A stretch of 64,000 bases of DNA, taken from positions 1,364,001-1,428,000 of the forward strand of contig NZ_CP089746.1 in the NCBI RefSeq assembly GCF_029541745.1, written 5' to 3'. Position numbers and translations under genes: made by a program. The notes below the pieces were generated by a model. That model searched no databases. It saw only the letters and a program-made list of their open reading frames with translations, and was not told the DNA's origin. Positions 21,728 through 58,371 of the stretch are shown here, one piece after another. Within the stretch, counting starts at the first letter, position 1. Each line of letters starts with the position of its first letter. This DNA comes from Streptomyces sp. LX-29 (GTDB lineage Bacteria > Actinomycetota > Actinomycetes > Streptomycetales > Streptomycetaceae).

Positions 21728-21749
21728 TTGAACCTTGCCATACGTGAGA

Positions 21750-22325: not shown

Positions 22326-22342
22326 GCGCCTGTCCCCGCCGA

Positions 22343-30451: not shown

Positions 30452-30455
30452 GGCC

Positions 30456-31481: not shown

Positions 31482-31486
31482 CTGGC

Positions 31487-34080: not shown

Positions 34081-34166
34081 GGTTTCCCCTTGCAGTGCGA
34101 GATCTCTGCCGAAATGGGGTTTCCGTCGGCCGGCGCCCCGCGGGGGCGCCGGCCGGCGACTGCGAG

Positions 34167-36900: not shown

Positions 36901-36979
36901 GTGTCCACCCCCTCACTCGTGGACTGGGACGTGCGGCCGCGGCGGAGGGTTGCCCGCCGCTTGTGCCGGGCGGTTCGGT

Positions 36980-38934: not shown

Positions 38935-39287
38935 GGCGTACTCATGCGACGTAGGAGACTCGAGGGAGGACCCGCTGCGCTCGTCCTCCCCGGTCACTGT
39001 GGACAGCCAGGCATACGGACGAGGACCGCGCCTCCGCGCGGGAGCGGTCGACCGGGCCCAGTGGGAGCGCTGGAGGTGGGCCGTGAAGCCAATGCCGTCA
39101 CATCCCCGTTCTACACCGGTTAACAGGATCGGCACGAAGCGGACACGCCGCGCCGCCCTGTCAAGGGCGGCTGACCACTCACCTCCGCTCACCTGGAACG
39201 AGGTGAGCGGGCGACGGTCCCGGCGTGGCCCGAATGGGCACCGGTCCAGCTTACGCCTTCGCTTGTGGAGACGACCGGGGGGAGTCC
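38935..39287 (-). promoter_or_regulatory. Upstream region of the hopanoid operon
   Basis: 353 bp without a gene, between the TetR stop and hpnC. On the minus strand it has a TTGACA (39164-39159) set inside a CCGCCC/GGGCGG dyad, a plausible -35 or operator. An AT-richer GTTAACCGGTGTAGAAC stretch lies about 30 bp further on. The promoter assignment is tentative because the spacing is not canonical. Confidence 0.4.
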
Positions 39288-40031
39288 CTACGCCTCCTGT
39301 TCGAACAGGTCCTCGATGCCCACGACCCGGGTGAGGTCCCGCAGCTCGCGCTCGAAGAACGCCTCCCCGTCCGCCAGCGCGAACGACATGAAGCCCAGGG
39401 TCTCCAGGCACATCAGCCCGTAGAGCCGCACCCAGCAGCGCAGCATGACGGCGATGGCGCCGGTGGGGAGCGTGATCTCCTGGGCCTCGCTGAGCCCGCG
39501 CAACTGCTCCACCAGCGCCGGTTCCAGCTCGGCCACCTCGGGCACGGGCCAGGGCCGGACCCGCCACAGGTCCTCGAACAGGTGGGACCAGAGCGAGCCG
39601 AAGACGGTCCAGCCGGTCTCCGGATCCGGCCGGGCGCCGGACCGGCCGAGACCCTGTGTCCAGGGGCCGAGCACCAGCCCGAACTCGTGCGGGTTCCGCA
39701 GCGCCCAGGCGCGCAGCGCCCGCGCGGCGGCGATCAGCCGTCGGCCGGGGTCGTCCGCGGGGAGCGCCTCGGTCATCACCCGGACCCGCTCCGCCATCTC
39801 GGCGAAGATGTCCGCCCGCAGCGCCATGATCAGGGCGTCCCGGCTGGTGAAGTAGCGGTAGACGGCCGGGGCGGTCATGCCCATGTCCCGGGCGATGGCC
39901 CGTATCGTCACGTTCTCCGGCCCCTGCTGGACCAGCAGCTCCCGCGCCACGTCCTTGATCTCGCGGATGGTGGCGATCCGCAGTCGCTCACGCCGGGTGT
40001 ACGGCACGACCGGCGCGTCCCCCTGGGACAT
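39288..40031 (-). CDS. TetR/AcrR-family regulator with TetR_C-type ligand domain
   Basis: A 247-residue repressor-type protein. The N-terminal helix-turn-helix is IKDVARELLVQQGPENVTIR and DMGMTAPAVYRYFTSRDALI. The C-terminal ligand domain (AWALRNPHEFGLVLGPWTQG, WVRLYGLMCLETLGFM) is the WHG-like class common in actinobacteria. The ATG at 40031 has GAGGGGGAAG about 5 nt upstream. It lies upstream of the hopanoid operon on the same strand and downstream of the PKS cluster; either could be its target. A 7-bp inverted repeat in its own promoter is a candidate operator. Confidence 0.92.
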   Translation of the reverse strand: MSQGDAPVVPYTRRERLRIATIREIKDVARELLVQQGPENVTIRAIARDMGMTAPAVYRYFTSRDALIMALRADIFAEMAERVRVMTEALPADDPGRRLIAAARALRAWALRNPHEFGLVLGPWTQGLGRSGARPDPETGWTVFGSLWSHLFEDLWRVRPWPVPEVAELEPALVEQLRGLSEAQEITLPTGAIAVMLRCWVRLYGLMCLETLGFMSFALADGEAFFERELRDLTRVVGIEDLFEQEA

Positions 40032-40195: not shown

Positions 40196-41809
40196 TCAGG
40201 AGGGGTGATGCGGACAGGAGGCGGGCGGGGCGTCCCCCGCCGCCGCGGTGTCGACCGTCCCGGCGTCGCCCGTCCTGACGTCGACCGCCCCCGCGTCGAC
40301 CGTCTTCGTGTCGACCGCCCCGGCGTCGACCGTCCCGATGTCGACCGCCCCCGCGTCGGCCGTCCCCGCGGCCGGGGCCGGGACGCTCGCCGGGGCCGGG
40401 ACGCTCGCCGGGGCGGGCTGCCGCGCCGGGGTCGCGGCCCGCTCGCGCGGGACCACGGTCACCATGACGTCCTGGAGCGGGCGCAGCGAGACCACCGGCG
40501 AGCCGTACTGCAGCGAGCTGCCGGGGATCCGCTGGATCTTGAACCGCTGGTTGACCATGGCGACGATGAGCCGCAGCTCCAGCAGGGCCATGAAGTTGCC
40601 CACGCACTGCCGGGGCCCGGCGCCGAACGGGAAGTACGCCAGCCGGGGCCGCTGCCGGATGGCCTCGGTGGTGAAGCGGTACGGGTCGAAGGCGAGCGGG
40701 TTGTCCCAGTAGCGCGGGTTGTGGTGGGTGACGAGCGGGGAGAGCAGGATCGAGGAGCCGGCCTCGATGTCGTAGCCGCCCAGCTGGTCCGCCCCCACGG
40801 CGGCCCGCGGGAAGATCCAGATCGGCGGGTGCATCCGCAGGCTCTCGTCGACGACCATGCGGGTGTAGCTGAGGGAGTCGGCGTTCTGCGCGTCGGGCAG
40901 CCCGCCGCCGAGCACGGTGGCGATCTCGGCGTCCAGCTCCTCCTGCACGTTGGGGTGGGAGGCGATCGACAGCAGCGTCCAGCACAGCGACACCGCGGTG
41001 GTCTCATGGCCGGCCAGGTAGACCGTGAGCAGCTCGTCCTTGATCTGCTGGGCGGTCCAGGGACGGCCGGTGACGGGGTCGACGGCCTGCTCCATCAGCG
41101 CGATCAGCGGGCCCTCGCCGGTCTCCGCGTACCGCCGGCGGACGTCGGCCACCACCCGGTCGAAGACCCGGTGGATCCGCTCGATCTTGCGCTTGCGCTC
41201 CGTGGGCACCCAGGAGGGCAGCATCTCGGCGGCGGTGCCGCGGCGGAACATCACCTCGACGACGTCGTCGACGATCTGCTTCAGCACCCGGGTCTCGGTC
41301 TTGATGTCGTAGGCGAACAGCGAGCGGCTGAGGGTGACCAGGGTCAGCTTCAGCATGTCGGTCATCAGGTCGACCGGCTGGCCCGCGGCGGCCTTGCGCT
41401 CCCAGCCCTCCATCATCTCCTCGGTGGCCCGGACGATGTTGGGGACGATGTCGTTGACGGCCTGCTTGAGGAAGACCGGCTGGACCGCGCGTCGGTGGCC
41501 GCGCCAGAACTCGCCGTCGGTGGTCAGCAGGCCCTTGCCCATGACCACGCCGAACTGCTCGTACAGCGGGCCGCGGACGTAGTTGGCGTGGTTCTCCACC
41601 AGGACCCGGCGCACCGCGTCCGGGCCGGTGACCTGATGCACCGTCATCGGGCCCAGCTGCATGCGCACCACCTCGCCGTAGTCGCGCTGCAGGCCCAGCA
41701 GGAACTCCGCGGTGTTGCGCTTCCAGTGCGCCAGGCTGCCCAGCAGGGGGACGCCCTTGGGGCCGGGCGCGAGGGAGCGCCGGCGCTGGGGGATCGTGGT
41801 CGTCGCCAT
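40196..41809 (-). CDS. Cytochrome P450 with repetitive C-terminal tail
   Basis: A 537-residue P450. The I-helix oxygen motif is LTVYLAGHETTAVSLCW, the ExxR is in VVDESLRMHPPIW, and the haem-Cys motif is FPFGAGPRQCVGNFMALLE. The domain is complete by about residue 460, similar to fatty-acid or long-chain hydroxylase-like bacterial P450s. The last 75 residues are an unusual low-complexity tail of five-residue units (VDAGA, VDIGT, VDTKT), then ASCPHHPS. The ATG at 41809 has AAGGAG about 10 nt upstream. It is the last gene of the PUFA-like PKS cluster, so it likely oxidises the released chain. No redox partner is encoded nearby. Confidence 0.94.
   Translation of the reverse strand: MATTTIPQRRRSLAPGPKGVPLLGSLAHWKRNTAEFLLGLQRDYGEVVRMQLGPMTVHQVTGPDAVRRVLVENHANYVRGPLYEQFGVVMGKGLLTTDGEFWRGHRRAVQPVFLKQAVNDIVPNIVRATEEMMEGWERKAAAGQPVDLMTDMLKLTLVTLSRSLFAYDIKTETRVLKQIVDDVVEVMFRRGTAAEMLPSWVPTERKRKIERIHRVFDRVVADVRRRYAETGEGPLIALMEQAVDPVTGRPWTAQQIKDELLTVYLAGHETTAVSLCWTLLSIASHPNVQEELDAEIATVLGGGLPDAQNADSLSYTRMVVDESLRMHPPIWIFPRAAVGADQLGGYDIEAGSSILLSPLVTHHNPRYWDNPLAFDPYRFTTEAIRQRPRLAYFPFGAGPRQCVGNFMALLELRLIVAMVNQRFKIQRIPGSSLQYGSPVVSLRPLQDVMVTVVPRERAATPARQPAPASVPAPASVPAPAAGTADAGAVDIGTVDAGAVDTKTVDAGAVDVRTGDAGTVDTAAAGDAPPASCPHHPS
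40240..40400 (-). repeat. 15-bp degenerate repeats coding the P450 tail
   Basis: Repeating GTCGACGCCGGGGCG-type units, phase-locked to the P450 frame, encode the Val-Asp-x-Gly-Thr/Ala pentads. The adjoining part has two PAPASV units encoded by an 18-bp direct repeat. Confidence 0.75.
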
Positions 41810-41829
41810 GGTTGGGGTTCTCCTTGCTG

Positions 41830-42714
41830 TCAAGAGCGCGGCCCGCGCGGGACGGGGAACAGGCGGCGTACGAAGAGGTTGTCGAAGACCGAGTCCGGGG
41901 CGAGGCGGCGCAGCGCGAGGGTGCTGTGCGCCAGGAAGCCCACCGGGTAGCGGGCGCGGGGCCGCGCGGTGCGCAGGATCCGCTCCACGGTCCTGGCCAC
42001 GTCGTCCGACTGGATGGCGAAGGTGCCCGCCAGGGTGCGGCGGCCGCCGCCGTAGATGGCGTTGAAGTAGTCGACGGTCTGGCGGCGGAACTCCTCGTAG
42101 TCGCGGCCGGCGAGCTTGAGGTTCCGCACGTTCTCCACGTACTTGGCGCCGAACTCGGTGCTGCGCACCGGTCCGGGCTCGACGAGGACCACCCGGACGC
42201 CGAAGGCGGCGGTCTCCAGTCGCATCGCGTCGCTGAGTGCCTCGACGGCGTGCTTGGTGGCGTTGTAGTAGCCGGAGCCGGGCACGGCGTAGCGGCCGAA
42301 GATGGAGGAGACGTTGACGACGGTGCCGCTGCCGGCCGCGCGCATGCCCGGCAGCACCAGTCGACTGAGCCGCACCAGGCCGAAGACGTTGGTCTCGAAC
42401 TGCCGCCGCACCTCGTCGAGTTCGGCCTCCTCGACCACCGCGGACAGTGCGTAGCCGGCGCTGTTGACCAGCGCCCCGACCGAGCCGTGCGCGGCCTCCA
42501 CCTCGGCCACGGCCGCGCGCATGCTCTCCTCGTCGGTGACGTCCAGCGGCAGGGTGTGAATGCCGGCCCCGGCGAGGTCCTTGATCGCGTCGGGGCGGCG
42601 GGCGGTCGCGTACACCTGGTGCCCGGCCCGGTGCAGCCGCAGCGCGCAGGCCCGGCCGATGCCGGAGGAGCAGCCGGTGATCAGGACCGAGGTCGGGGTG
42701 GGCTTCGTGGTCAT
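41830..42714 (-). CDS. Short-chain dehydrogenase/reductase
   Basis: A 294-residue SDR. It has VLITGCSSGIGRACALRLHR at the N-terminus, NSAGYALS, catalytic Ser in VNVSSIFGRYAV, and YxxxK in GYYNATKHAVEAL. The C-terminal extension (residues 240-294) is longer than in FabG-type enzymes, resembling retinol/hydroxysteroid-dehydrogenase-like SDRs acting on lipophilic alcohols. It starts at ATG 42714 and ends 20 bp before the P450, in the same transcript as the PKS genes. Oxidation or reduction of a hydroxyl on the polyketide/fatty chain is the likely role. Confidence 0.93.
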   Translation of the reverse strand: MTTKPTPTSVLITGCSSGIGRACALRLHRAGHQVYATARRPDAIKDLAGAGIHTLPLDVTDEESMRAAVAEVEAAHGSVGALVNSAGYALSAVVEEAELDEVRRQFETNVFGLVRLSRLVLPGMRAAGSGTVVNVSSIFGRYAVPGSGYYNATKHAVEALSDAMRLETAAFGVRVVLVEPGPVRSTEFGAKYVENVRNLKLAGRDYEEFRRQTVDYFNAIYGGGRRTLAGTFAIQSDDVARTVERILRTARPRARYPVGFLAHSTLALRRLAPDSVFDNLFVRRLFPVPRGPRS

Positions 42715-42787: not shown

Positions 42788-43231
42788 TCAGGGCGCGGCG
42801 GGCGGGTCGAAGGCGCCGAGCTGCTGGGCGAGGTCGTAGGAGTCCATGGAGAACCAGCTCTCCACGATCAGGCCCTCGTCGTCGAACTCGTCGATGACGA
42901 TGCCGGGGATCTCCAGCTTCCGGCCGCGCGCCGGGATGAGGCCGCCGGCGTAGGGCTCGCCGGTGTGGGTGCCCCGCGCGGTGAAGCGGCTGACCACCTT
43001 GTTGCCCTCGATGATCCAGTCCTCGACGGTGACGTGCAGGTCGGGGAAGGAGGCGCGCTGGATCCGCACCCACTCCTTGAGGTGCTCCACACCGGACTTG
43101 CCGTTGGGGGCGGTGCCGTGGCTGATGTGGTCGTCCCCCGCGCCCTCGTAGATGACGTCGAGGTTGCCCTTGTTGAGGCACTCCTCGTAGTAGCGCTCCA
43201 GGGTCGCCTTGTTCTGCTCGGCGGTTGCCAT
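42788..43231 (-). CDS. SnoaL-like ester cyclase / polyketide-cyclase-fold protein
   Basis: A 147-residue protein of the SnoaL/NTF2 alpha+beta fold: QNKATLERYYEECLNKGNLD, ERIQ-type helix EHLKEWVRIQRASFPDLHVT, and the barrel strands IIEGNKVVSRFTARGTHTG. His/Asp residues in DDHISHG and SFPDLH occupy positions used by aldol cyclases, but the same fold also serves hydroxylases and isomerases. The ATG at 43231 has GAGAGGGAC close upstream; an earlier ATG at 43282 lacks one. Its place just after the PKS genes suggests it acts on the PKS product. Confidence 0.9.
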   Translation of the reverse strand: MATAEQNKATLERYYEECLNKGNLDVIYEGAGDDHISHGTAPNGKSGVEHLKEWVRIQRASFPDLHVTVEDWIIEGNKVVSRFTARGTHTGEPYAGGLIPARGRKLEIPGIVIDEFDDEGLIVESWFSMDSYDLAQQLGAFDPPAAP

Positions 43232-43319
43232 GTTCGTCCCTCTCGTCGTTCGTCGCTCGCCGCTGCGGACAGCGGTGGTCATGGGTGGTGGGTGGTGGGG
43301 GCGGGCGCGGCCGGGGCGG

Positions 43320-45797
43320 TCACCGGGGCCCGTGCCGGGTGGCGGGGGCGTCGCCGGACGGGCCGGGGGGATCGTCGCCGAGCGGGCCGGGCAGCCCGGA
43401 GACGGTGAGCACCGGCTCCCCGGTGGCCGCGCGGGTGACCCGCCACACCCCCAGGGCCGGGTCGCCCTCCACGCGGGACGGCCCGCGCTCCGCGGCGTGC
43501 GGCGCGATGCGCCCGATGACCAGGGGGTCGACGGTGACCGAGAGCCCCTCCCCGCGCCGGGCGCAGCGCCGCACGATGTTCTCCAGCGGCGCCACCGGCA
43601 GCGCGGGGTGCGGCACCTGCGGGGTCGCCCACAGGTCGTTGGCGGCGCACGGCCGTACCTCGGCGACCGGCCGGCCGTCGGGGCCGGTGTGCCACGCGGC
43701 GGCCGGCACCACCGCGGACCGCCAGCGCAGGAACGGCGGGCCGGAGCGCAGGGTGGTGCTCTGGGTGACCGCGGGGCGCTCCAGCGGGCCGGGCGGCTCG
43801 GCGTCGCGCCGGTGGACGACGCGCAGGCTCGCCTCCGTCGCCTCCCCGCCGTCCTCCCCCGCGCCGGTGTCGCCGGCCCGGCGGTAGCGCACCTCCACGA
43901 CCCAGTCGCGGCCCTCGTGGAAGCCGCGCGCGGTGCGGGTGAGCCGGAGCCGTCCCCCGTCGAGCCGCAGCAGCGCCAGGGGCACCACGATCCGCTCGAC
44001 GGCGGCGACCCGCAGTGCCGGGTAGTCCTCGGGGACCAGCCATTCGGCGCCGCGCACCGCGTTCTCCAGCAGCACGCTGACCGGCACCGCGTCGCCGCCG
44101 TCGACCTGGAAGTCGCCGAGCACCGGCGCCCGGTCGCGGTCGAAGACGACGGTGGCGTCCAGGCGGGCGTGCGGCTGGAAGGCGGTGACCTCGCCGAGGT
44201 GGAAGATCCGCGGGTACGCGGCCTGGAAGCCGGGCAGCGCGGGCACCACCGGGTAGCCGACGGCCTGGCCGGGGTCGATCGCCCGTCCCAGCGGGCCGAC
44301 GAAGGTGACCTCCCCCGCCGTGCCGGCCAGCAACTCCGCCTCCCAGCGGGCCAGTCCGTCGGCGACGTCGATGGCCGCCATGTAGCGCAGGGTGGCGCCG
44401 AAGTTGGCGATGAGGCCGATCCGGTCCCAGGTGGGCCAGGCCAGCGTCATCACGGGGAAGGCGGCCCGGCGGTCGGCCCAGGTGCCCAGCCGCGCCAGCC
44501 CGTCGTTGGCCGCGGCGTACTCCAACTGGCCGACCATGCCGCCCAGTCGGCCGGTGAGCGAGCCGACCGCGCAGAAGAACTTCAGGTCGAGCTGCCGCAC
44601 CTCCTCGAAGAGGTGCAGGAAGCCGTCGACCTTGACCTCGACGGTGCGCAGGATCTCCGCGTCGGACTTCTTGGGCAGCCGGGCGGCGGTGTCCACGCCG
44701 GCGTTGTGGATCACGCCGGTGAGCGCCCCGCCCTCGCGTCGGACCAGCTCCCGGACCTGCGCGGGGTCGGTGAAGTCGCATCGCGCGTAGTCGATGCGCA
44801 GGCCGTGCCGCCGCGCGGAGGTGAGGTTGGCCGCCAGCTCCCACAGCCGGCGCTCCCGGCCGAGGCGGCGACGCACCTCGGCCGGCGACCGTCCCGGGGG
44901 CCGCTCCGCCCACACCCCCCGCTCGTACGCCTTCAGCGCGGCCTCGTCCGCGCCGAACCACGGCTCGTCCCCGGTGGGGAAGGGCTCGCGGCCGGTCACC
45001 ACGACCCGTACGCCGTGTCGTTCGGCGAGGGTGCGCGCCAGCTCCCAGCCGATGCCGCGGCCGCCGCCGGAGACCAGCACGGTGTCGGCGGGCCCGAGGG
45101 TGAGCGCCGGCGCGGCGGGCGGCCGGGCGCCGGGGGTGAGGGTGAGCCGGCGCCCGTCGCGGTAGCCGACCTCGATCTGGCCGACCCGGCCCAGCTCGGC
45201 GGCGACGATGCCGGGCAGCTCGGCCGCGGCGTCCAGGGCGAGGTCGACGACCCGCGCGTTGCAGTTGGGGAACTCGCGGTGCAGGGTCTTCGCCAGGCCG
45301 GCCCAGATGCCGCCGAGCGGCTGCGCCAGGTCGTCGTCGGGGTGCTGGCCCATCCCGCCGCCCAGATAGCTGACGGCGAGGTAGAACAGCCGGTCCGCGG
45401 CGGTCTCGGCCGCCCAGGCGTCGTACACGCCGCGCAGCGCCGTGACGGTCTCGGTCAACGCGGCCCGCCACGCCCCCACCGCCTCGCGACCGCCGGCCGA
45501 GAGGCGGTGCCCCACGGTGAGGTCGACGATGGCGTCGACGGGACCGGTGTGGGCCGCGCCGTGCCGCACCCGGGCGCCGCACCGGGTCAGCTCCACGCCG
45601 ACGGCCCGCGCCACGGCGGGCTCGCCGCCCAGCAGCAGCACCCGCAGGCCGGCCAGCCGGGCGGGATCGTCGACGGCCGGCGGCAGTTCGGTGAGCTCCC
45701 ACACCATCCGGGTCACCGGCTGGACGGCGGCGTCCTCCGCCGGCCCCTCCGCGGGGGCCGGCGGCGCCGCGACGGGCGTCGGGTCGGTGAGGGTCAT
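43320..45797 (-). CDS. PKS/PUFA-type ketoreductase protein with degenerate dehydratase-like domain
   Basis: An 825-residue protein. Residues 45-230 are a KR structural subdomain (PNCNARVVDLALDA). Residues 235-440 are a catalytically complete KR: SGGGRGIG for NADPH, Ser413 in VGSLTGRLGG, Tyr427 and Asn431 in EYAAAND. Residues 545-800 look like a hot-dog dehydratase, but at the place of the catalytic His there is Asp562 (VLGDFQVDGG), so it is probably inactive or structural. The ATG overlaps the stop of the large synthase (ATGA), with GGAGG upstream, so the two are co-translated. It probably works in trans on the ACP-bound chain of the 2032-residue synthase. Confidence 0.9.
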   Translation of the reverse strand: MTLTDPTPVAAPPAPAEGPAEDAAVQPVTRMVWELTELPPAVDDPARLAGLRVLLLGGEPAVARAVGVELTRCGARVRHGAAHTGPVDAIVDLTVGHRLSAGGREAVGAWRAALTETVTALRGVYDAWAAETAADRLFYLAVSYLGGGMGQHPDDDLAQPLGGIWAGLAKTLHREFPNCNARVVDLALDAAAELPGIVAAELGRVGQIEVGYRDGRRLTLTPGARPPAAPALTLGPADTVLVSGGGRGIGWELARTLAERHGVRVVVTGREPFPTGDEPWFGADEAALKAYERGVWAERPPGRSPAEVRRRLGRERRLWELAANLTSARRHGLRIDYARCDFTDPAQVRELVRREGGALTGVIHNAGVDTAARLPKKSDAEILRTVEVKVDGFLHLFEEVRQLDLKFFCAVGSLTGRLGGMVGQLEYAAANDGLARLGTWADRRAAFPVMTLAWPTWDRIGLIANFGATLRYMAAIDVADGLARWEAELLAGTAGEVTFVGPLGRAIDPGQAVGYPVVPALPGFQAAYPRIFHLGEVTAFQPHARLDATVVFDRDRAPVLGDFQVDGGDAVPVSVLLENAVRGAEWLVPEDYPALRVAAVERIVVPLALLRLDGGRLRLTRTARGFHEGRDWVVEVRYRRAGDTGAGEDGGEATEASLRVVHRRDAEPPGPLERPAVTQSTTLRSGPPFLRWRSAVVPAAAWHTGPDGRPVAEVRPCAANDLWATPQVPHPALPVAPLENIVRRCARRGEGLSVTVDPLVIGRIAPHAAERGPSRVEGDPALGVWRVTRAATGEPVLTVSGLPGPLGDDPPGPSGDAPATRHGPR

Positions 45798-48700
45798 CGG
45801 CGGGCCTCCGATGCCGCGTCGGCGGGGACCGCCTCGCCGGTCTCGGCGTCGATGTAGCCGATGAGCGTGGCCTGGAGGTCCTTCATCTGGAGCAGCATCC
45901 GGCCGTCCGGGCGGGCGGCGACGAAGCGGTTGCTCACCCGGTCGGCGGCCAGGTCGAAGCCGGGCGGGGTGACGTACAGATCGATGACGTCGCCGCCGGT
46001 GGCCAGGGCGCGGTCGCTGGTCTCCTCGTACAGGTCGATACGGCGGATGGAGAGCGGCGCGGCCACCGGCACCAGCCGGCCGTCGACCAGGTCCAGCACG
46101 CCCACCCGCGCCAGCCCGTCCAGCAGGATGCCGGGCACGGTGAAGCGGGACCAGACCGGGTCGCCGGCCGGGATGTCGGGGGCGTAGCGGGCCCGCTTGC
46201 CGCGCGGGTGGATGCGGGTGTCGGTGGTGGAGACGAAGGGGCCGGTCAGCATCACCGGGGCGCCCGACTGGTGGTACGGGTCGGGCACCGGGGTCTCCGC
46301 GCCGGCCTCCCACGGCTCCCAGCGGGGCGCGGCGGGCAGGGCGTCGGCGAGCAGCACCCTGGCCAGGAAGTGCACCCGGTCCTTCTTGAGCACCACGCCG
46401 CTGGGTGCGACCACGTCCTCGGTGATCCGCACCTGGACGACGGTGGTGTCCCCGACGGTCTCGGCCAGTTCGGCGCGGATCCGCTTGGGTCCGGTGGGCA
46501 CGTCCTGGTAGACCCGCAGGAAGTGTTCGAAGCGCAGGTCCTCGAAGCCGATGACCTTCTTGTCGGGGACCAGCGCCCGGGCGGCCTCGGCCGCGATCTC
46601 GGTGACGAAGGTGCCGGGCAGCGTCGCCTCGCCGCGCACCGTGTGGTGGCCGAGGTAGGCGTCGGTCTCCAGGTCGAAGGGGCACTCGTAGACCACCGCG
46701 GTCGCGCTGCGCTCGACCGGGCGGCGCAGGTAGAACCCCTGGTCCGCGGCGGCCGGGCCGGCGAGGTAACCGGGGTAGAAGCGCTCCACCGTGGCCCGCT
46801 CGGCCTCGCCCAGGTGCACCACCGAGGGCCGGCGGTGCGGCGCGTGCAGCTCCTGGACGAAGTGCTGGATGCCCTCGGCGATCGACATGTTGCTGTAGGA
46901 GCCGGCGCGCTCGTAGTACGCCTTGGTCAGCTCGTCGGCGCCCATGCCGACGCCTTCCCACAGCGTCCAGCCGATGGTGAACTCCTCGGTGGCGGTGGTC
47001 GCCGAGGCATGGGTGGCGGCGCTGGCGAGGAAGTCGTTGGCGGCCGCGTAGTCGGCCTCCCCCAGCTGCCCGAAGTAGCCCAGCAGCGAGCCGAAGTTGC
47101 ACCACAGCCGGGGTGGCCGGCCGCGCAGCGCGTGCTTGAGGTTGAGGTAGGAGTCCACCTTCAGGTCGCGGATGGCGGTGAACTCCGCGAAGCTCTTGTC
47201 CTTGATCAGCCCGGAGCGCTGCAACCCGGCGGCGTTGACCAGCAGGTCGATCCGGCCCTGCTCGTCCAGGACCCGGCCCATGGCACGGTCCACCGCGTCC
47301 CGGTCGCGCATGTCGCAGGCGAGGTACGTCACCCGGCCGGGGCCGCTGTGCGCCTCCATCTCGGTCAGGTTGCGGCGCGCCCAGCGGGCGTTGACGAGGC
47401 GGTCGAAGGCGCGGTTGATGTCGGCGACGCTGCGTCCGTCGCGCCGGGCCAGCTCCGCCTTGATGAAGCCGGAGCGGCGGGCGGCGAACTCCTCGTCGGT
47501 GCCGGTGAAGGTGTCCGCCGGGTGGCTGTCCAGCGCGTTGCTGCCGAGGACGTAGATCCGCGGCCGGAAGTGCTCGGCGACGGCCTTGACCACCTCGGCG
47601 GTGATGCCGCGCGCGCCGCCGGCGACCACCACGACCGACTCCCGGTCCAGGACCGCGGTCGCTCCGGCGGCCAGCGCGTTGGGCTCGTCCCGGAGCACAT
47701 ACCCCTTCCGCACCCCGTCGAGGTCGAAGACGACCGGGAAGGCGCGGTCCGCGGCGCTCTCCTGCTCGGCACGGGCGACGGCCGCCGCCGGGTCGGTGGC
47801 GGAGGTGAACAGCGCGTAGCCCAGCGCCTCCGGGCGCTCCAGGCGGGCGGTCTTCAGCAGCCCGGAGAACAGCCCGGTGTACGGGTGCGGGACGCCGCCG
47901 GACGCGGCGCCGAGCAGCAGCACCACGAAGGAGGCGGCGGGGTCGCCCAGGTCGTCGTACGCCTGCTGGAGCACCAGGTAGGCGGCGTCGTGCAGGGCGG
48001 TCAGCCGGGGCACCGGGGTGGTGAGCGCCTGCTCGGGCGGCGCGGAGCGGCCGAGGTCGCCGAACACCCGCAGCGCGGTGACTCCCGGGCCGGCGGCGGC
48101 CAGCACCTCGCGCACCGCCTCCGGGGTGGCCTCGGGCAGGTGGTGCCAGCCGGGGCGCGGGGCGTCCAGGGGCACGGTGGAGAGCACCGTCAGCGGCGCG
48201 TCGGCGGGGGCCACCCGCGCGAGCGACTCGGGGGCGTCGGTGAGGACCAGCGCGCCGCTCGGCAGGAACGGGGTGCGGGGGCGCACCTCCCGCGCGGGCA
48301 GCTCGGTGAGCACCGGCACCTGGCGGTGGACGCGCAGCGGGGTGCCGGGGGCCAGCTCGCCGTCGGTGGCGAAGGTCGAGGGCAGCGGGGCGCGTTCGGC
48401 GGCGGGGCCGTCGGCGTCGCCCTCCTCGCCGGGGATGGTGAGCCGCAGCCGGGCGCCGGCCGCGCTCTCGCTCTCGTCGGTGGAGACCGCCACCGTGCCG
48501 GGGCGGCCGTGCAGCGCCTTCAGTACGGCCAGTCCGCCGGCCGCGCCGAGGTAGCGGGCGGTCGCCGGGGCGGGCGCCCCGCACAGCAGGGTCTCGTCCT
48601 CGCCGGCGTCCTGGTCCAGCGCCTCGTCGACGTAGGCCAGGACCTTCAGTCCGGCGCTGCGGGCGCGCTCCTCGGTGGTGAGCGCGAAGAGGAAGGCGCC

Positions 48701-51700
48701 CTCGGCGAGCTCCGCGGCCTCCGGCGGCAGCAGGTCGCCGATCAGCGTGCGGTACTCCGGCAGGCTGTTGCCGTTGATGCCGCCGGCCAGCGCGAAGTCC
48801 AGTTCCCCGGTGCGCAGATAGCGGCTGGCGGAGGTGATGGAGGACAGCGCGGAGGCGAAGCCGGAGTCCATCGTCATGTTGGGGCCGTGCAGGTCGAAGT
48901 AGTTCGCCACCCGGGCCGAGATGATGTTCGGCATCTGGCCGGGGAAGGAGTCCTCGTTGGAGGCCGGGATCATCTCCCGCACCTGGGCGCGCAGCCCGTC
49001 CAGCAGCCGCGGCACGGCGTCCGAGGCCACGTCGGCCAGGGCCTCCTCGATGTCGTCGAGGTAGCAGCGGTTGGCGTAGAGCATCGCCGCGCGGGTGGGG
49101 CCCATGTGGCCGACGAAGACGCCGGTGGTCAGGGCCTGCTCGGCCCAGAAGTCGGGCATCTGGTCGCGCAGTTGGTGCGCGCACTCCAGGATCATCAGCT
49201 GGCAGCGGTCCAGCGCCCGGATGGTCTTCGGAGGGAGCCGCACCTTGTTGAACGGCGGCGCCGGGTAGTCCCGGCCGAAGCTGTCCAGCGGGCGCGCGCC
49301 GCCGTCGAGCCAGCGGAGGACGTCGTCGCGGGAGTCGAGCCCGGGCAGGTGTGCCGACCAGCCCACGACGGCCACCCGGTTGCCGGTGTCCGGCACCTTG
49401 GCGGCGGGCGCGGCCGCGGCCCGGGCCGGCGCGGCGGCGGAGCGGGCGGCGGGCCGGCTCTCGGAGACGATCAGGTGGGCGTTGGTGCCGCCGAAGCCGA
49501 AGCCGGAGACGGCGGACAACCGCGGCTCGCCGGCCGGCCCGGACCACTCCCGGTGCTCCGGGGTGATCTCCAGCCCGGTCTCCGCCAGCCGGAAGTCCTC
49601 CCGGGGCGCGCTGAAGCGGAACTGGCCGGGGATGGTGTGCTCCTCCAGGCCCAGCAGGTTCTCGATCAGCGAGACCACGCCGGCGGCCCAACCGGTGTGC
49701 CCGATCAGCGACTTGTTGGAGGTCACGGAGGCGGGCCCGGAGGTGCCGTAGTACTCGCGCAGCGTGGTGAACTCCGCCAGGTCGCCGGCCGGGGTGCCGG
49801 TGGCGTGCGCGTTGACCCACCGCACATCGCCGCCGTCGACGTCGCCGGCCTCCAGCGCCCGCTGCACGGCGAGCGACTGGCCGGCGGCGTTCGGGGCGTA
49901 GATCGCCTTGCCCTTGCCGTCGGAGGAGGAGCCGAAGGCGCGCAGCACGCCCAGCACCCGGTCGCCGTCGGCCTCGGCCCGACTGAGCCGCTTGAGGACC
50001 ACCAGCGCGGCCCCGTCGGCGAAGATCACGCCGTCGGCGTCCTCGTCCAGCGCGTGCACCCGGCCGCGCTTGGAGAGCCCCTGGAGCTTGGAGAAGAGCA
50101 CAGTCCCGCGCGGGGCCAGGGCGAAGGCGCCGCCGCACACCGCGATGTCCTGCTTGCCCATCAGCAGGCCCTTGGCGGCGATGTCGATCGCGTACAGGGA
50201 CGAGGAGCAGGCCGTGTCGACCATGTGCAGCTCGGTGTCGGCCGGCAGCAGCCCCTGCATGGCCAGCTCGCCGACGCGGTGCGGCAGGAACCGCTCCCCG
50301 CCCTGCGCCGCCCGCCAGTAGCGGCGCTTCAGCGCCGCGTCGACGTCGCCGCGCAGCGCCTCGCGCTCGCCCTCCGCGAGCGGCAGCCCGCCCACGATGT
50401 CGTGCGTCATCCGCACCACGCTGTCCAGCACCCCGGCCTCCTCCAGGTGCTGGCTGCCGTCGGGGGTGTAGCCGACGACGAAGGAGGCGCGGTCGGTCTC
50501 CCGGTGGGCCACCCCCTCCAGCGCCTGCACCAGGCTGTGCCGCAGCCACATGGTGGTGAACTCGTGCTCCTCGGCACCGTCCGCCATGCTGTCCACCGAG
50601 CCGGGCGCCGCCTGGAAGTCGGTGATGAACACGCAGTTCTCGGCGTACGCCTTGTCCTCGTCCGCGGTGTCCGCGGAGTGGAAGTTGGCGTGCCGCCAGC
50701 GGTCCGCGGGCACGGGCGTGAACAGCTCGTCGCCCGTGGTGCGCAGCTTCCAGAACTCCTCGGGGCTGTTGGCGCCCGCGACCGTGAGGCCCATGCCGAC
50801 GACGGCGATGGCGTCGTCCTCGACGGCGATGGCGTCATCTTCGACGGGGGTGGCCGCGGCCCGGTCGGGCTCGCGCTCCCGTACGACGGCGGGCCGCGGG
50901 GGCGCGGCGGCCTCGGCGGCGGGGCCCACGACCGTGTCCGCGGCGGGCGGCGCGCCCTCGCCCGGAGCCGCCACGACCAAGGCCGCGCGCTTCTCGTCGG
51001 CCCGCTCCCCGACAGGGACCGCCGCGTCGACGGCCGTCCCCGCGGCGGGGACGGCCGCGGTCGCCGTCCGGGGCTCGGCCGTCACGGTCGGCTCCGCCGG
51101 CGCGCTCGGTGCCGGCGGGGGCGAGAGCAGGGCCGCGCCCAGGGAGAGGCCGCCGTCGGCGAGGACGACCTGGCCGGTGATCCAGCGGGACTCGTCGGAG
51201 GCGAGGAAGGCGACGACGTCCGCGAACTCCTCGGGGGTGCCGAGCCGACCGAAGGGCGTGGCGCGGGCGATGACCTCCTGCATCTCCCGGGCGCGGGGGA
51301 ACCTGTCGGCGACCTCGCTGGTCAGCATGGCGGCGGAGGCGGTGTTGACGCGGATGCCCAGCGGGGCGAACTCCACCGCGAGGTAGCGGGTCGCCGCCTC
51401 GGCGGCGGCCTTGGCGGGGCCGCACGCCGAGTAGTTGGCCATGACGAACTGCGAGCCGCCCAGCGCGGAGACGGTGACGATGGAGCCGCCCCCGTGGCGG
51501 GCCATCAGCGGGGCCGCCGCGCGGGCGACCCGCAGTCCGCCCTTGTAGTTGGTGTCGACGGCCTTGGCGATGTCCTCGTCCGTGACCTCCCGCAGGGGCA
51601 GCAGCGCGCCGTTGGCGGCGCTGTTCACCAGGATGTCCAGTCGCCCGTGGCGCTCTTCGAGCTCCGCGAACATCCGGTCGACCTGCTCCTGGCGGGCCAC

Positions 51701-51892
51701 CGAGGCGCGGGCCAGGTCGACCGTGGCGCCGTCGGCGACCAGCTCGTCCCGGGTCCGCTTCGCCTGGTCGTGCGAGTGGAAGTAGTTGATGACGAGATGG
51801 GCGCCGCGCGCGGCCAGCGCCTGGGCGATCGCCTTCCCGATCCCCTTCGACCCACCGGTGACGAGCGCCACCTTCCCCGTGAGGTCACTCAT
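45794..51892 (-). CDS. PUFA-synthase-like PKS: enoyl reductase-KS-CLF-KR-DH
   Basis: A 2032-residue iterative synthase. Residues 1-255 are a complete SDR-type enoyl reductase: VTGGSKGIG, and Tyr154-x6-Lys161 with spacing as in FabL/FabI. A disordered Ala/Pro linker spans 256-360. Residues 361-815 are a ketosynthase with Cys562 (DTACSSS), His696 (NAHATGT) and His732. Residues 838-1250 are a second KS fold with Phe1012 where the Cys should be (DSGFASA), i.e. a chain-length-factor-like domain. Residues 1415-1700 are a KR (Ser1602, Tyr1615, Asn1619). Residues 1735-2015 are a DH (His1749/1750, Asp1925). It has no ACP or AT of its own; these come from the adjacent gene. KS-CLF pairing is typical of PUFA synthases, whereas the fused N-terminal reductase is unusual. 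Confidence 0.93.
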   Translation of the reverse strand: MSDLTGKVALVTGGSKGIGKAIAQALAARGAHLVINYFHSHDQAKRTRDELVADGATVDLARASVARQEQVDRMFAELEERHGRLDILVNSAANGALLPLREVTDEDIAKAVDTNYKGGLRVARAAAPLMARHGGGSIVTVSALGGSQFVMANYSACGPAKAAAEAATRYLAVEFAPLGIRVNTASAAMLTSEVADRFPRAREMQEVIARATPFGRLGTPEEFADVVAFLASDESRWITGQVVLADGGLSLGAALLSPPPAPSAPAEPTVTAEPRTATAAVPAAGTAVDAAVPVGERADEKRAALVVAAPGEGAPPAADTVVGPAAEAAAPPRPAVVREREPDRAAATPVEDDAIAVEDDAIAVVGMGLTVAGANSPEEFWKLRTTGDELFTPVPADRWRHANFHSADTADEDKAYAENCVFITDFQAAPGSVDSMADGAEEHEFTTMWLRHSLVQALEGVAHRETDRASFVVGYTPDGSQHLEEAGVLDSVVRMTHDIVGGLPLAEGEREALRGDVDAALKRRYWRAAQGGERFLPHRVGELAMQGLLPADTELHMVDTACSSSLYAIDIAAKGLLMGKQDIAVCGGAFALAPRGTVLFSKLQGLSKRGRVHALDEDADGVIFADGAALVVLKRLSRAEADGDRVLGVLRAFGSSSDGKGKAIYAPNAAGQSLAVQRALEAGDVDGGDVRWVNAHATGTPAGDLAEFTTLREYYGTSGPASVTSNKSLIGHTGWAAGVVSLIENLLGLEEHTIPGQFRFSAPREDFRLAETGLEITPEHREWSGPAGEPRLSAVSGFGFGGTNAHLIVSESRPAARSAAAPARAAAAPAAKVPDTGNRVAVVGWSAHLPGLDSRDDVLRWLDGGARPLDSFGRDYPAPPFNKVRLPPKTIRALDRCQLMILECAHQLRDQMPDFWAEQALTTGVFVGHMGPTRAAMLYANRCYLDDIEEALADVASDAVPRLLDGLRAQVREMIPASNEDSFPGQMPNIISARVANYFDLHGPNMTMDSGFASALSSITSASRYLRTGELDFALAGGINGNSLPEYRTLIGDLLPPEAAELAEGAFLFALTTEERARSAGLKVLAYVDEALDQDAGEDETLLCGAPAPATARYLGAAGGLAVLKALHGRPGTVAVSTDESESAAGARLRLTIPGEEGDADGPAAERAPLPSTFATDGELAPGTPLRVHRQVPVLTELPAREVRPRTPFLPSGALVLTDAPESLARVAPADAPLTVLSTVPLDAPRPGWHHLPEATPEAVREVLAAAGPGVTALRVFGDLGRSAPPEQALTTPVPRLTALHDAAYLVLQQAYDDLGDPAASFVVLLLGAASGGVPHPYTGLFSGLLKTARLERPEALGYALFTSATDPAAAVARAEQESAADRAFPVVFDLDGVRKGYVLRDEPNALAAGATAVLDRESVVVVAGGARGITAEVVKAVAEHFRPRIYVLGSNALDSHPADTFTGTDEEFAARRSGFIKAELARRDGRSVADINRAFDRLVNARWARRNLTEMEAHSGPGRVTYLACDMRDRDAVDRAMGRVLDEQGRIDLLVNAAGLQRSGLIKDKSFAEFTAIRDLKVDSYLNLKHALRGRPPRLWCNFGSLLGYFGQLGEADYAAANDFLASAATHASATTATEEFTIGWTLWEGVGMGADELTKAYYERAGSYSNMSIAEGIQHFVQELHAPHRRPSVVHLGEAERATVERFYPGYLAGPAAADQGFYLRRPVERSATAVVYECPFDLETDAYLGHHTVRGEATLPGTFVTEIAAEAARALVPDKKVIGFEDLRFEHFLRVYQDVPTGPKRIRAELAETVGDTTVVQVRITEDVVAPSGVVLKKDRVHFLARVLLADALPAAPRWEPWEAGAETPVPDPYHQSGAPVMLTGPFVSTTDTRIHPRGKRARYAPDIPAGDPVWSRFTVPGILLDGLARVGVLDLVDGRLVPVAAPLSIRRIDLYEETSDRALATGGDVIDLYVTPPGFDLAADRVSNRFVAARPDGRMLLQMKDLQATLIGYIDAETGEAVPADAASEARR

Positions 51893-51947: not shown

Positions 51948-53468
51948 TCAGCCGGCGGCCGAGGCGGACGCCGCGGCGCGGTCGCCCCGCGCGTTCAGCT
52001 GCTCCAGCACGAAGTCCGTGATCCGGCCCATGGTGTTGTAGGTCGCCAGCCGGAAGCCGGAGTCGCGCGGCGGCAGTCCGTAGCGGTCCGAGACCCGGGA
52101 GAGCAGCTCGACCTGCTTGACCGAGTCGACCCCGAGCTCCGCCTCCAGCTGCACCTCGTCCTCGAAGACGTCCTCGGGGTACTCCAGCGCCTCGGCGTAC
52201 AGCGCCCGCAGCTCGTCGAAGAGCCGGGGGCGGTCGTAGGAGGCGCCGTCCGCCGGCTCGGCGGCCGCCGGCGCCGAGGCGGGCGCCTCAGGGGCGACGG
52301 TGGCCGGCGGCTCCGCGGCCGCCGCGTCGTGCGCCTTGCGGAAGGCGTCCAGCTCGCCGCGGACCAGCTCCAGGACCATCTCGCCGCGCTCGCTCCAGTA
52401 GGCCGCGAAGACCTCCGCGGGCACCGCCGGGGCGAGCAGCTCGGCGAGTCCGCCGCCGTGGTCGCGGTCGGCGAGGCCCGCCTCGCGCAGGGTGTCCAGG
52501 GTCTGGTCGAGCGCGAGCCGGCCGCCGAGCACCGCCAGCGTGGGCAGGGCCCGCACCGGAGCCCCGGAGGTGAGCCGGCCGACCAGCTTGGCGAGCGCGG
52601 CGCGGCCGCCGGCCTCGACGAAGACGCTGACGCCCGTGTCCCGCAGCTGCCGCACGGCGGCGGCGAACCGGACCGGCCGGGTGAAGTGCTCCGCCAGCAG
52701 GTCGGCCAGCGCGTCACCCGGCTCGTAGTAGCGCTGGAGGATCGGCGAGTAGACCGGGCGGGCCAGCGGGTGCTGGTCCAACTTCCGTACGTACGCGGCG
52801 AACTCGGGGGCGGCCGGGGCCAGCGCCGGGGTGTGGAAGGGGAACGGGGTGTCGATCTCGATGGCGTTCACGCCCAGTTGCCCGGCGATGACCACCACGC
52901 GGTCCAGCACCCCGGCCGGGCCGCTGACCACGGTCTGCTCGTCGTGGTTCTCGGTGGCCACGGCGAGCAGCGGCTCGTCGATGAGCTCCAGCAGCTTGCC
53001 GGTGCGCTCCGCGCTCGCGGACAGCGCCACCATGCGGCCGTCGATGCCGCTCTGCCGCTCGATCACGGCGACCCGCTGGGCGACGATGCGCACCCCGTCC
53101 TCGACGGAGAACGCCCCGGCCGCCACCAGGGCGGTGATCTCGCCGAGGCTGTGTCCGGCCAGCACGTCCGGGGCGGCGCCGTGCGCGGTGAGGATCTCGT
53201 GGGCGGCCAGGCCCGCGCCGTAGATGGCGATCTGGGAGGCCCAGGGGTCGCTGTCCAGCAGGTCGCGCAGGTCGGCCTTGCGGTCGCCGAAGAGCAATTC
53301 GCTGACGCGGCGCGAGTAGAGCTCCTCGGTCGCCGTGTCGATGCGTTCGAAGACCCGACGGACCTGCGGGTAGCGGGTCCTGGCCCGGCGCAGCGCCTCG
53401 CCGTCGAAGCCGCCCTGGCCGGGGAAGAGGAACGCGGTCGTGAAGCCGGCGGAAGAGCTGGGAGACAT
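51948..53468 (-). CDS. Acyltransferase-ACP didomain protein of the PKS
   Basis: A 506-residue protein. Residues 8-345 are a malonyl-CoA-type acyltransferase: FPGQGG, Ser107 in GHSLGE, Arg132, and His212 in FPFHTP. After an Ala/Pro linker, residues 410-495 form one acyl carrier domain with attachment Ser449 in ELGVDSVKQVELL, the motif style of PUFA-synthase ACPs. The ATG at 53468 has GGAGG about 8 nt upstream. It lies 55 bp before the large synthase and supplies its missing AT and ACP in trans. Only one ACP is present, against tandem ACP arrays in classical PUFA synthases. Confidence 0.93.
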   Translation of the reverse strand: MSPSSSAGFTTAFLFPGQGGFDGEALRRARTRYPQVRRVFERIDTATEELYSRRVSELLFGDRKADLRDLLDSDPWASQIAIYGAGLAAHEILTAHGAAPDVLAGHSLGEITALVAAGAFSVEDGVRIVAQRVAVIERQSGIDGRMVALSASAERTGKLLELIDEPLLAVATENHDEQTVVSGPAGVLDRVVVIAGQLGVNAIEIDTPFPFHTPALAPAAPEFAAYVRKLDQHPLARPVYSPILQRYYEPGDALADLLAEHFTRPVRFAAAVRQLRDTGVSVFVEAGGRAALAKLVGRLTSGAPVRALPTLAVLGGRLALDQTLDTLREAGLADRDHGGGLAELLAPAVPAEVFAAYWSERGEMVLELVRGELDAFRKAHDAAAAEPPATVAPEAPASAPAAAEPADGASYDRPRLFDELRALYAEALEYPEDVFEDEVQLEAELGVDSVKQVELLSRVSDRYGLPPRDSGFRLATYNTMGRITDFVLEQLNARGDRAAASASAAG

Positions 53469-53533: not shown

Positions 53534-54907
53534 TCAGGCCGTCCGGCCTGCGGAGCCGCCGAGCAGATAGGTCCCCATGGAGCCGAGGTTCGCGGCGATC
53601 AGCCGGTCGGCGAGCCGGGTCACCGGCGGCAGGTGCCGGGGGGCGCCGCGAACCAGCCACTTGACCATCCGGATCTTCCAGCCGGGGTCGCCGCCCGGCG
53701 TGACATGGTCGAAGAGCGCGTGGATGTTGGCCGGGGCGTAGAACTCCGCGGGCGGCACGATGGTGGCGAACATGCCGACCATGCCGGAGCCGTGCTCCGG
53801 GCTGCGCGTCATCGCCCGGATGATCTCGAGCTCCTCGCGGTTGTGGTCGGCGATCATCGCGTGGTCGCGGGTGTACCGGTAGTGGCCGCGCACCAGCGCG
53901 TCGCGCCGGCGGGCGTAGCCGGCCAGCGCCTGGTTCAGGTCGCGGTCCCCGGAGAGCGCCGGCTCGACGGCCTCGGCGAGGAGTTCGGCGCCGCGCAGCG
54001 CGTCGGTGATGCCGGCGGCGGTGATCGGGTCGCGGGTGTAGCCGGCGTCGCCGACCAGAGCCCAGCCGCGACCGTGGGAGCGGCGCAGGAAGTTGGGCAC
54101 GGCACCGGTCATCCACCGGTCGACGCGCTCGGTCTCCCGGAGCCGGGCCGCGAAGTCGGGGTCGACCTCGTCGAAGGCGGCGATGACGGTCTTGTCCCGC
54201 TCCTCGTCGGGGGCCGCCTGGAAGTCCTTGACCGGCAGCGCCACGCCCACGATGGTCAGTCCGTCGTGGGTGGGCCAGGTGAAGGCGTGTTTGTGGTGGT
54301 GGCGGTAGGTGCGCACCCTGCCGTCGTGCGGCAGCCCCGACCAGTAGGACCAGTGGCTCTTGTTGAGCACCGGGGAGGTGTCGTACTTCTCGGCGCCGAC
54401 CAGTCGGGCGACGGTGGAGTTGGCGCCGTCGGCGCCGACCACCAGGCGGGCGTGGGCGACGACGGGGGTGCGGTCCTCGGTCTCGGCCCGGACGCCGATG
54501 ACGGTGCCGTGGTCGTCGGTGAGCAGCTCGCGCAGCGCGACCTGCTCCCGCAGCTCCGCCCCGGCCTCGACCGCGCCTTGCAACAGGATCTCGTCGAGCT
54601 TCGTGCGCTCGGGCGAGTACGCCTCGGCGACGCCGTCGACGGCGGGAAGCCTGGCCATCAGGGCGACCGGACCGCTCTGCAGTCCGTAGGAGTGGATGGG
54701 CGGGCAGCCGGTGGCCCGGACCGCGTCCAACAGGCCCCAGCGGCGCAGTCTGAGAATTCCCGGCGGATGGATCAGATTGGTCGCCGCCGCCTTGCCTCCG
54801 GGGAATTTCGCCCGGTCAAGCAGCAGCACCCGGTGGCCCGCCTTCGATAACAGCATCGCCGTCGCCGCACCGCTGACTCGTGCGCCCACAACAATGACGT
54901 CGTACAT
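53534..54907 (-). CDS. FAD-dependent oxidoreductase (geranylgeranyl reductase / monooxygenase-like)
   Basis: A 457-residue flavoprotein. The FAD-binding N-terminus is MYDVIVVGARVSGAATAMLL. The VVGADGANSTVARLVGAEKY (GD/DG) motif follows, with GWALVGDAGYTRDPITAAGI near residue 300. The set matches the p-hydroxybenzoate hydroxylase/geranylgeranyl-reductase superfamily. It may epoxidise, hydroxylate or reduce double bonds of the PKS chain. The ATG at 54907 has GGGGGTCG close upstream; upstream frame extension is unlikely. It is the first gene of the PKS transcript, 66 bp before AT-ACP, with a 195-bp control region in front. Confidence 0.9.
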   Translation of the reverse strand: MYDVIVVGARVSGAATAMLLSKAGHRVLLLDRAKFPGGKAAATNLIHPPGILRLRRWGLLDAVRATGCPPIHSYGLQSGPVALMARLPAVDGVAEAYSPERTKLDEILLQGAVEAGAELREQVALRELLTDDHGTVIGVRAETEDRTPVVAHARLVVGADGANSTVARLVGAEKYDTSPVLNKSHWSYWSGLPHDGRVRTYRHHHKHAFTWPTHDGLTIVGVALPVKDFQAAPDEERDKTVIAAFDEVDPDFAARLRETERVDRWMTGAVPNFLRRSHGRGWALVGDAGYTRDPITAAGITDALRGAELLAEAVEPALSGDRDLNQALAGYARRRDALVRGHYRYTRDHAMIADHNREELEIIRAMTRSPEHGSGMVGMFATIVPPAEFYAPANIHALFDHVTPGGDPGWKIRMVKWLVRGAPRHLPPVTRLADRLIAANLGSMGTYLLGGSAGRTA

Positions 54908-55009
54908 CGCGACCCCCATGTCCGGTCGGCGCCCGCGCACGGTCGACCGGATCGGCAATTTCGCACTTTGGAAAGATGGCAGCATGACGGAGGCGATTCC
55001 GGCATCGCG

Positions 55010-55102: not shown

Positions 55103-55402
55103 CTATCCGGCCTTCTTCTCCGAGGACACTGTACTTTCGTTCAGGTGCCGGTAGCTGAGGGCGACGAGGCCCGCCTGCAAACGCGACTCCACCTGCAGTT
55201 TCTCAAGTATTCGGGCCACGTGGGCCTTGACTGTGCGCTCGGTCACCTGCATCCGCACCGAGATGCTGCGATTGGACCAGCCGGCGCCGAGCAGCGCGAA
55301 GGTCTCGGCCTCGCGAGCGGACAGGAGCCGGACCCGGCGCAGCTCACGCGACCAGGTCGGCTCGGGGAGATCCATCGTCGACATCACTGACAGCCGCGTC
55401 AC
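55103..55402 (-). CDS. Small LuxR-type HTH regulator (no receiver domain)
   Basis: A 99-residue protein consisting almost only of a LuxR C-terminal DNA-binding domain: RLLSAREAETFALLGAGWSN, RSISVRMQVTERTVKAHVAR, ILEKLQVESRLQAGLVALSY. There is no phospho-receiver or ligand domain, so its activity may be set by expression level or by a partner. The GTG at 55402 is preferred since GGGGGA lies 5 nt upstream; an ATG further upstream (about 55432) is possible. It has a good sigma-70-like promoter. Its position just before the PKS operon makes it the probable pathway activator. Confidence 0.88.
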   Translation of the reverse strand: MTRLSVMSTMDLPEPTWSRELRRVRLLSAREAETFALLGAGWSNRSISVRMQVTERTVKAHVARILEKLQVESRLQAGLVALSYRHLNESTVSSEKKAG

Positions 55403-55478
55403 CACAGCGTTCCCCCTTGCATCGCATTCCATCGGGCACCCCGCAATGATCCGGTGCACCCGCCGGTTTGTGTATTGA

Positions 55479-58301: not shown

Positions 58302-58371
58302 TTTCGTCCTCGGGGTGCGCTGCCGGGGCCGCGCCCCGGATCGCGCCCGATGCTCTCAGATCCGAGCTTGT

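Follow-up and report, generated by a model that had tools for sequence, protein, structure and literature searches.

The subject of this report is a fused synthase gene, and the cluster around it, in Streptomyces sp. LX-29, whose genome is a single contig of 8.23 Mb. The stretch analysed, called the window below, comprises 64,000 nucleotides (contig NZ_CP089746.1, positions 1,364,001 to 1,428,000), and coordinates refer to it unless another locus is named; related loci and genomes carry our own L and G numbers. The open reading frame of the synthase occupies 45794-51892 on the minus strand, begins with ATG at 51892 shortly after an AAGGAG, encodes 2032 amino acids and has a GC content at third codon positions (GC3) of 0.98. 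Its domains are arranged in the order short-chain dehydrogenase/reductase (SDR), ketosynthase (KS), chain-length factor (CLF), ketoreductase (KR) and dehydratase (DH). A sequence-only reading of the window had proposed enoyl reductase (ER)-KS-CLF-KR-DH; Pfam matches and motifs bear out this order, with SDR as the neutral name of the first domain; the gene and all its parts lie on the minus strand.

The SDR domain comprises residues 1-256 (51125-51892; Pfam adh_short_C2 16-250) and is assigned to a FabL-clade enoyl-reductase type on Pfam, PDB, motif, tree and structural model. It is joined by an Ala/Pro/Glu-rich variable linker (residues 257-356, 50825-51124), supported by alignment and dN/dS, to the KS (residues 357-822, 49427-50824), which is supported by trees and Pfam (ketoacyl-synt, best stretch 556-639; Ketoacyl-synt_C 648-758) and retains Cys-His-His in VDTACSSS, NAHATGT and SNKSLIGHTG. 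The ketoacyl-synt model has three matching stretches in the gene, one of them (48767-49237) in the CLF-like second KS (residues 823-1200, 48293-49426), where the active-site Cys is gone (MTMDSGFASA). Residues 1201-1400 (47693-48292) have no Pfam match, are present in relatives and evolve fast; they probably correspond to a structural KR half. The KR itself (residues 1401-1690, 46823-47692; Pfam KR 1420-1646) has its Tyr-x3-Asn intact (EADYAAANDF), and the DH (residues 1691-2032, 45797-46822; PKS_DH_N 1726-1809) carries the catalytic-His motif HHTVRGEATLPG. The same fusion of a complete SDR ahead of KS, as the sequence-only reading had described it, is found in 13 of 20 related loci (12 from Streptomyces, one from Nocardia; L014 runs off a contig end), with linkers of varying length and an unbroken frame, so it is no accident of assembly.

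The active site of the SDR consists of Asn115, Ser142 and Tyr154-x6-Lys161, which is the arrangement of FabL, that of FabG being Tyr-x3-Lys; this Tyr-Lys pair and the VTGGSKGIG motif lie where the sequence-only reading had located them. FabL is defined, in the available portion of PMC9260719, by Asn-Xn-Ser-Xn-Tyr-x6-Lys without the internal Met of FabI. Among our Escherichia coli references FabG has Tyr-x3-Lys and FabI Tyr-x6-Lys. All 31 fused SDRs compared have Tyr-x6-Lys, and none of the 31 has Tyr at the FabG spacing, four before Lys; with two fused SDRs added later (L154 and L155) the count is 33 of 33 intact domains, including those of Nocardia and of a Paraburkholderia plasmid and leaving aside one decayed remnant (L056). 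The full Asn-Ser-Tyr-Lys set is kept in 30 of the 31, and a FabL-like N[N/S]AAxG replaces NNAG in 30, the exception being L052. Other SDRs of the same genome are of a different kind: of 30 loci considered (49 matches in all), 20 were extracted (the window itself, six with an internal stop and three others were left out) and 19 are distinct (L087 repeats L063). Tyr-x3-Lys is present in 18 of them, counting L089, which has Tyr at both positions, and Tyr-x6-Lys in one (L075).

Database comparisons point the same way. The best PDB match of the SDR domain is Bacillus subtilis FabL (3oic, 173.8 bits; 40% identity to 3oic/3oid), followed by a FabG at 137.4 bits. The comparison with FabL and FabG profiles, which the sequence-only reading had called for, puts FabL first: SDR-sized NCBIfam models score 224.8 bits (FabL), 210.1 (glucose-1-dehydrogenase) and 192.8 (FabG). 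The FabL model also ranks first for the fused domains of Nocardia, Paraburkholderia and a divergent locus, L057, with a lead of 43 to 52 bits and scores under its cut-off. A phylogenetic tree was built from 67 of 83 SDR rows after removal of 16 near-copies or partial rows; its FabL comparison group held B. subtilis FabL together with 11 rows above the FabL cut-off and five under it. The 22 fused rows form one clade (support 100/99) recovered in all 200 bootstrap trees, and a 100/96 branch puts them with FabL and FabI, opposite FabG and the classical SDRs of the same genome. The fused clade stands beside the FabL/FabI group and separate from it, that group's own fork having support of 88/91. 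A grouping of residues 1-255 with FabG, the outcome that the sequence-only reading had named as decisive against it, was looked for in this tree and not found. The identity of residues 1-256 as a FabG was thus rejected on both Tyr-x6-Lys spacing and tree position.

Several observations weigh against an enoyl reductase of FabL type. The score of 224.8 bits lies below the curated cut-off of the FabL model NF005975 (328 bits), all fused domains scored with this model fall below that cut-off, and in the window its lead over the glucose-1-dehydrogenase model is just 15 bits. The fused SDR of L052 has Asp in place of the catalytic Asn. Comparison of the predicted structure (mean predicted local distance difference test score, pLDDT, 76.7, with residues 151-156 around Tyr154 below 50) yields Z scores between 29.9 and 28.7 across 50 rows and does not separate FabL, FabG and other SDRs; FabI-type chains are missing from the list compared, so that their absence there excludes nothing. 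Because its score stays under the FabL cut-off, the SDR is best described on these comparisons as related to FabL but in a separate clade, and not as a strict FabL. The proposal of a FabL-type enoyl reductase therefore holds as to the FabL side, on which motif, tree, profile rank and PDB match agree, and fails as to strict FabL.

The same shortfall leaves room for a competing explanation, in which the SDR represents a third ketoreductase, or some other carbonyl or alcohol dehydrogenase, that drifted to Tyr-x6-Lys, and the product is a polyene or hydroxylated chain made without enoyl reduction. It would fit with the tie in the structural comparison and with the fact that FabG and other SDRs also use Asn-Ser-Tyr-Lys; the FabL site is even called a FabI/FabG hybrid in the available part of PMC9260719. 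It is opposed by the invariant spacing in 33 of 33 intact domains, the 100/96 split from FabG and the FabL-like motif replacing NNAG in 30 of 31. Moreover, a third ketoreductase would be redundant, since the KR in cis and a second one encoded next to the synthase (KR2, below), both with intact Tyr, already cover ketoreduction. We regard this explanation as unlikely, though the most serious of those weighed here.

Selection on the individual segments of the gene is consistent with a working enzyme. When the gene is divided into seven segments, dN/dS is lowest in the SDR for seven of nine genome pairs, for instance 0.13 between the window and L010, versus 0.26-0.44 for the segments from KS to DH. 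Values for the linker range from 0.40 to 1.27 over the nine pairs, and its length is strongly variable among relatives in the alignment while the reading frame is kept. The slow SDR and fast linker therefore suggest a domain retained as an enzyme on a joint that is free to change. Counting against this, the SDR is not the slowest segment in the remaining two pairs, where values are smaller for KS and DH (L010-L011) or for KS (L011-L013). These data also bear on the idea that the SDR is an enoyl reductase working outside the elongation cycle, for instance a single time on a chain already completed or released, or else a docking or scaffolding piece. The variable, length-unconserved linker, the N-terminal position ahead of KS, unlike that of the usual ER domains of medium-chain dehydrogenase/reductase (MDR) type, and the loss or decay of the SDR in relatives would all suit such a role. 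A pure scaffold, on the other hand, needs neither a full catalytic set (30 of 31) nor low dN/dS, and we consider this idea improbable, more so than a third ketoreductase.

Relatives of the synthase occur both with and without the SDR. Among the 20 related loci, the synthase of L019 is complete and 79-90% identical to that of the window, domain by domain; of the loci lacking the fused synthase, L022 is a different polyketide synthase (PKS), and the matches of L023-L028 cover the SDR or are weak. Full relatives of KS-CLF (at least 339 bits, the next match scoring 196) were found in at least 14 places in 11 of 147 genomes of the order, a lower bound, as six candidates were scored per genome. Eight of the 14 have the SDR, five lack it and one has a decayed remnant: the synthase of genome G090 (L056, 1638-7136) starts with a shortened SDR without Tyr and Lys, by its sequence a natural dead version. 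The second KS-CLF gene of L051 has no SDR ahead of KS, tblastn with three fused SDRs found none in L049, L050 or L051, and the SDR gene directly after the SDR-less synthase of L060 is of FabG kind (NNAG, Tyr-x3-Lys) and therefore no displaced FabL. Decay in L056 and absence at five of 14 places are expected if the reducing domain is optional. A point on the other side is that SDR-less L050 has an MDR gene about 2 kb past its gene for an acyltransferase (AT)-acyl carrier protein (ACP) didomain; other reductases may serve in some SDR-less systems. L049 and L051 (genomes G104 and G100) each contain two KS-CLF genes facing divergently, one of each pair having the KS Cys changed to Ser (VDTASSSS and VDAASASS).

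On two KS-CLF trees, which include four rows that are empty in more than half of their columns (L091, L094, L100, L102), presence and absence of the SDR require at least three changes. As the fused SDRs are one clade, a single fusion followed by losses fits this pattern, though not uniquely. With a threshold of E 1e-55 the FabL model matched 18 times, in 15 of 101 genomes of the genus, and 12 of these matches, including the window and a genome of the same species, are fused ahead of KS; AT-ACP adjoins 11 of the 12, the exception (L094) lying at a contig end. Among 14 control genomes B. subtilis alone matches, and FabLs above the cut-off, present in 11 of 346 genomes of the phylum, are in open frames of 256-434 amino acids, none of them fused. 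Outside the phylum, a plasmid of Paraburkholderia ginsengisoli (L154) carries AT-ACP, the fused synthase, annotated merely as 'SDR family oxidoreductase', and a protein uniting cytochrome P450 with KR2-DH, with a phosphopantetheinyl transferase gene and insertion sequence elements nearby. Its KS-CLF nests within the actinobacterial family, next to the group of the window (96/94), which points to transfer between phyla. Taken together, we lean towards a widespread KS-CLF family with a FabL-clade enoyl reductase in cis before KS; this domain would have been acquired by fusion, have travelled between phyla together with the cluster, and in some lineages have been lost or silenced by decay of its active site. 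The divergent fused branch at L057 (10748-17981) has as neighbours, by Pfam, a KS III-like protein, P450, a Rieske protein, 3-hydroxyacyl-CoA dehydrogenase, acyl-CoA dehydrogenase and a HAD hydrolase, which suggests an unusual extender or chemistry like that of RK-682 and the tetronates; taking the HAD gene for FkbH is our own reading, Pfam giving HAD hydrolase only.

The sequence-only reading had described the protein as a synthase like those of polyunsaturated fatty acids (PUFA; Pfa). This part is not supported. In a KS tree of 51 rows a long branch leads to the family, which is a single clade (100/100) outside nine PfaA and three PfaC-like rows, all from Streptomyces; the PfaA rows exceed the cut-off of TIGR02813, and the name PfaC-like was given, without a profile, to neighbours of PfaA according to the KS they contain. 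The joining of the deep clades is poorly supported (54/5). TIGR02813 scores 295 bits on the synthase, far below its cut-off of 1010.1, and membership of the PUFA synthases was rejected on this score and the KS placement. The cluster has one PP-binding domain and no tandem ACPs (two are present in the relative L053), and no PfaD-type flavin ER was matched by Pfam in the seven cluster proteins scanned, the synthase among them, which are the part of the genome searched. A PUFA synthase variant of Pfa type whose PfaD has been exchanged for the fused SDR could appeal to the shared set of KS-CLF, AT, ACP, KR and DH, to the 295-bit match itself and to the PfaA-clade KS near related SDR-KS-CLF clusters in three genomes; with the KS clade apart, the score so low, a single ACP and no PfaD among the scanned proteins, we hold it to be very improbable, the least credible of the alternatives. 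Nor is the Streptomyces coelicolor locus, put forward as the nearest comparison, probably the nearest, because it is a Type L cluster with fused pfaBC plus pfaD, according to the accessible part of Shulse & Allen 2011 (PMC3098273); here descriptions were compared, not sequences. S. flaveolus L022, tried as a PUFA-like relative, was discarded, its KS grouping with ordinary PKS rows.

The three genomes just mentioned are G064, G170 and G207 (loci L055, L144-L146 and L148-L150). In G064 a PfaA-clade KS lies within the same 20 kb as the SDR-KS-CLF gene. G170 and G207 have a PfaA above the cut-off about 25 kb from the sister SDR-KS-CLF cluster, with another PKS also near; in all three the SDR-KS-CLF frame stops after CLF. 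A hybrid lipid pathway is possible in these neighbourhoods. The genome of the window has a second, PfaA-like PKS elsewhere (G000:C1:457780-460467, L147) with 687 bits to TIGR02813, below the cut-off, and many of the 101 genomes surveyed in the genus have PKSs like it with similar scores.

The genes around the synthase all lie on the minus strand. Directly upstream is the AT-ACP didomain protein (51948-53468, 506 amino acids; Pfam Acyl_transf_1 and PP-binding, motifs GHSLGE and GVDSVKQ), and downstream the start codon of a KR2-DH-like protein (43320-45797, 825 amino acids) overlaps the synthase stop. KR2 has its Tyr; in the DH-like half the catalytic His is missing (LGDFQVDG), Pfam finds no match and the structural model is unusably poor (mean pLDDT 49.0). 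Farther out are a FAD-dependent oxidoreductase (53534-54985; best NCBIfam model geranylgeranyl-reductase family, 98.9 bits, below the cut-off of 158.8), a SnoaL-like protein (42788-43282; Pfam), a stand-alone SDR of 294 amino acids, SDR294 (41830-42714; profile matches), a cytochrome P450 (40196-41833; Pfam), a LuxR-type helix-turn-helix protein (55103-55459) and, at the downstream edge, a TetR-type regulator (39288-40031), the two last with weak matches below cut-offs; synteny supports all six. The order FAD enzyme, AT-ACP, synthase, KR2-DH, SnoaL, SDR294, P450 is kept in 10 of 12 Streptomyces loci, L014 and L020 being cut short (L020 downstream). Some relatives have added genes, a major facilitator superfamily (MFS) transporter in L012 and WS/DGAT in L021; the Nocardia locus L015 has AT-ACP and synthase and no match to a separate KR2-DH. 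In Paraburkholderia L154 P450 and KR2-DH are one protein of 1344 amino acids (21036-25070), a fusion that ties the window genes at 40196-41833 and 43320-45797 together. Immediately after the Nocardia synthase lies an AfsA-type (A-factor synthase) hotdog gene (L015, 15589-16668). No thioesterase was found by Pfam among the seven cluster proteins.

We consider it probable, judging from sequence, that these genes encode an iterative type I KS-CLF synthase that is separate from the PUFA synthases and whose FabL-clade enoyl reductase is optional and acts in cis. The three proteins AT-ACP, SDR-KS-CLF-KR-DH and KR2-DH-like would together form one iterative polyketide or fatty-acyl synthase, in which AT would load the extender unit onto ACP, KS-CLF would condense it, and KR and DH would produce a trans-2-enoyl-ACP. 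We infer that the N-terminal SDR would then use NAD(P)H to reduce the enoyl double bond by means of Tyr154 and Lys161, in every cycle or in chosen cycles only, and that the flexible linker would position it as a separate module beside the KS dimer. Free-standing FabL is a tetramer, as given in the accessible portion of PMC9260719. Relatives without the SDR would retain double bonds. The P450, FAD enzyme, SnoaL protein and SDR294 would tailor the chain, and the product is likely a tailored acyl chain that is at least partly saturated.

The domains known to carry out enoyl reduction in type I synthases are of MDR or flavin type. Iterative type I PKSs and fatty acid synthases with such an ER share with the window a complete reducing set in one system; here the ER would be an SDR, located before KS. 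B. subtilis FabL (PDB 3oic/3oid) is likewise an SDR of about 250 amino acids with Asn-Ser-Tyr-x6-Lys, no internal Met and an N[N/S]AAxG region, yet it is free-standing, whereas the SDR of the window is built into one protein with a type I KS, belongs to another clade and scores under the FabL cut-off. FabL2/FabI2-type enzymes are also SDR-family enoyl reductases beyond classical FabI and are described, in the portion of PMC9260719 at hand, as separate proteins and not as synthase domains. Pfa synthases, including Type L, share the iterative KS-CLF, KR, DH, AT and ACP set, as far as the available part of PMC3098273 describes them, and differ in their separate PfaD ER, usually tandem ACPs, DH/I domains and distinct KS clades. 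We found no description of a FabL or other SDR enoyl reductase fused to KS in the literature searched, of which some sources were accessible in part and subscription journals lay mostly outside, so this is no proof of absence; the synthase family appears to have no existing name. If our proposal is true, type I synthases would have, in a FabL-type SDR acting in cis, a third way of carrying out enoyl reduction, and the SDR-bearing, dead-remnant and SDR-less relatives would be a natural on/off series for the programming of saturation. Because the family exists in these three states, such programming is testable with natural relatives and one active-site mutation.

Hopanoid-like genes, named by eye, adjoin the cluster on the minus strand (29285-39567): a squalene-synthase-like pair and HpnE-like, prenyltransferase, squalene-hopene cyclase, HpnH-like and IspG-like genes. 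Their adjacency is common to L009-L013 and L017-L019; in the available flanks of L016 and L021 the hopanoid genes of the window are unmatched, so a functional tie to the cluster is not needed. On the other side, also on the minus strand and named by eye, an ABC transporter pair and glycosyltransferase-, dehydrogenase-, nucleotidyltransferase- and CDP-alcohol transferase-like genes (56561-63646) perhaps form a wall-polymer locus.

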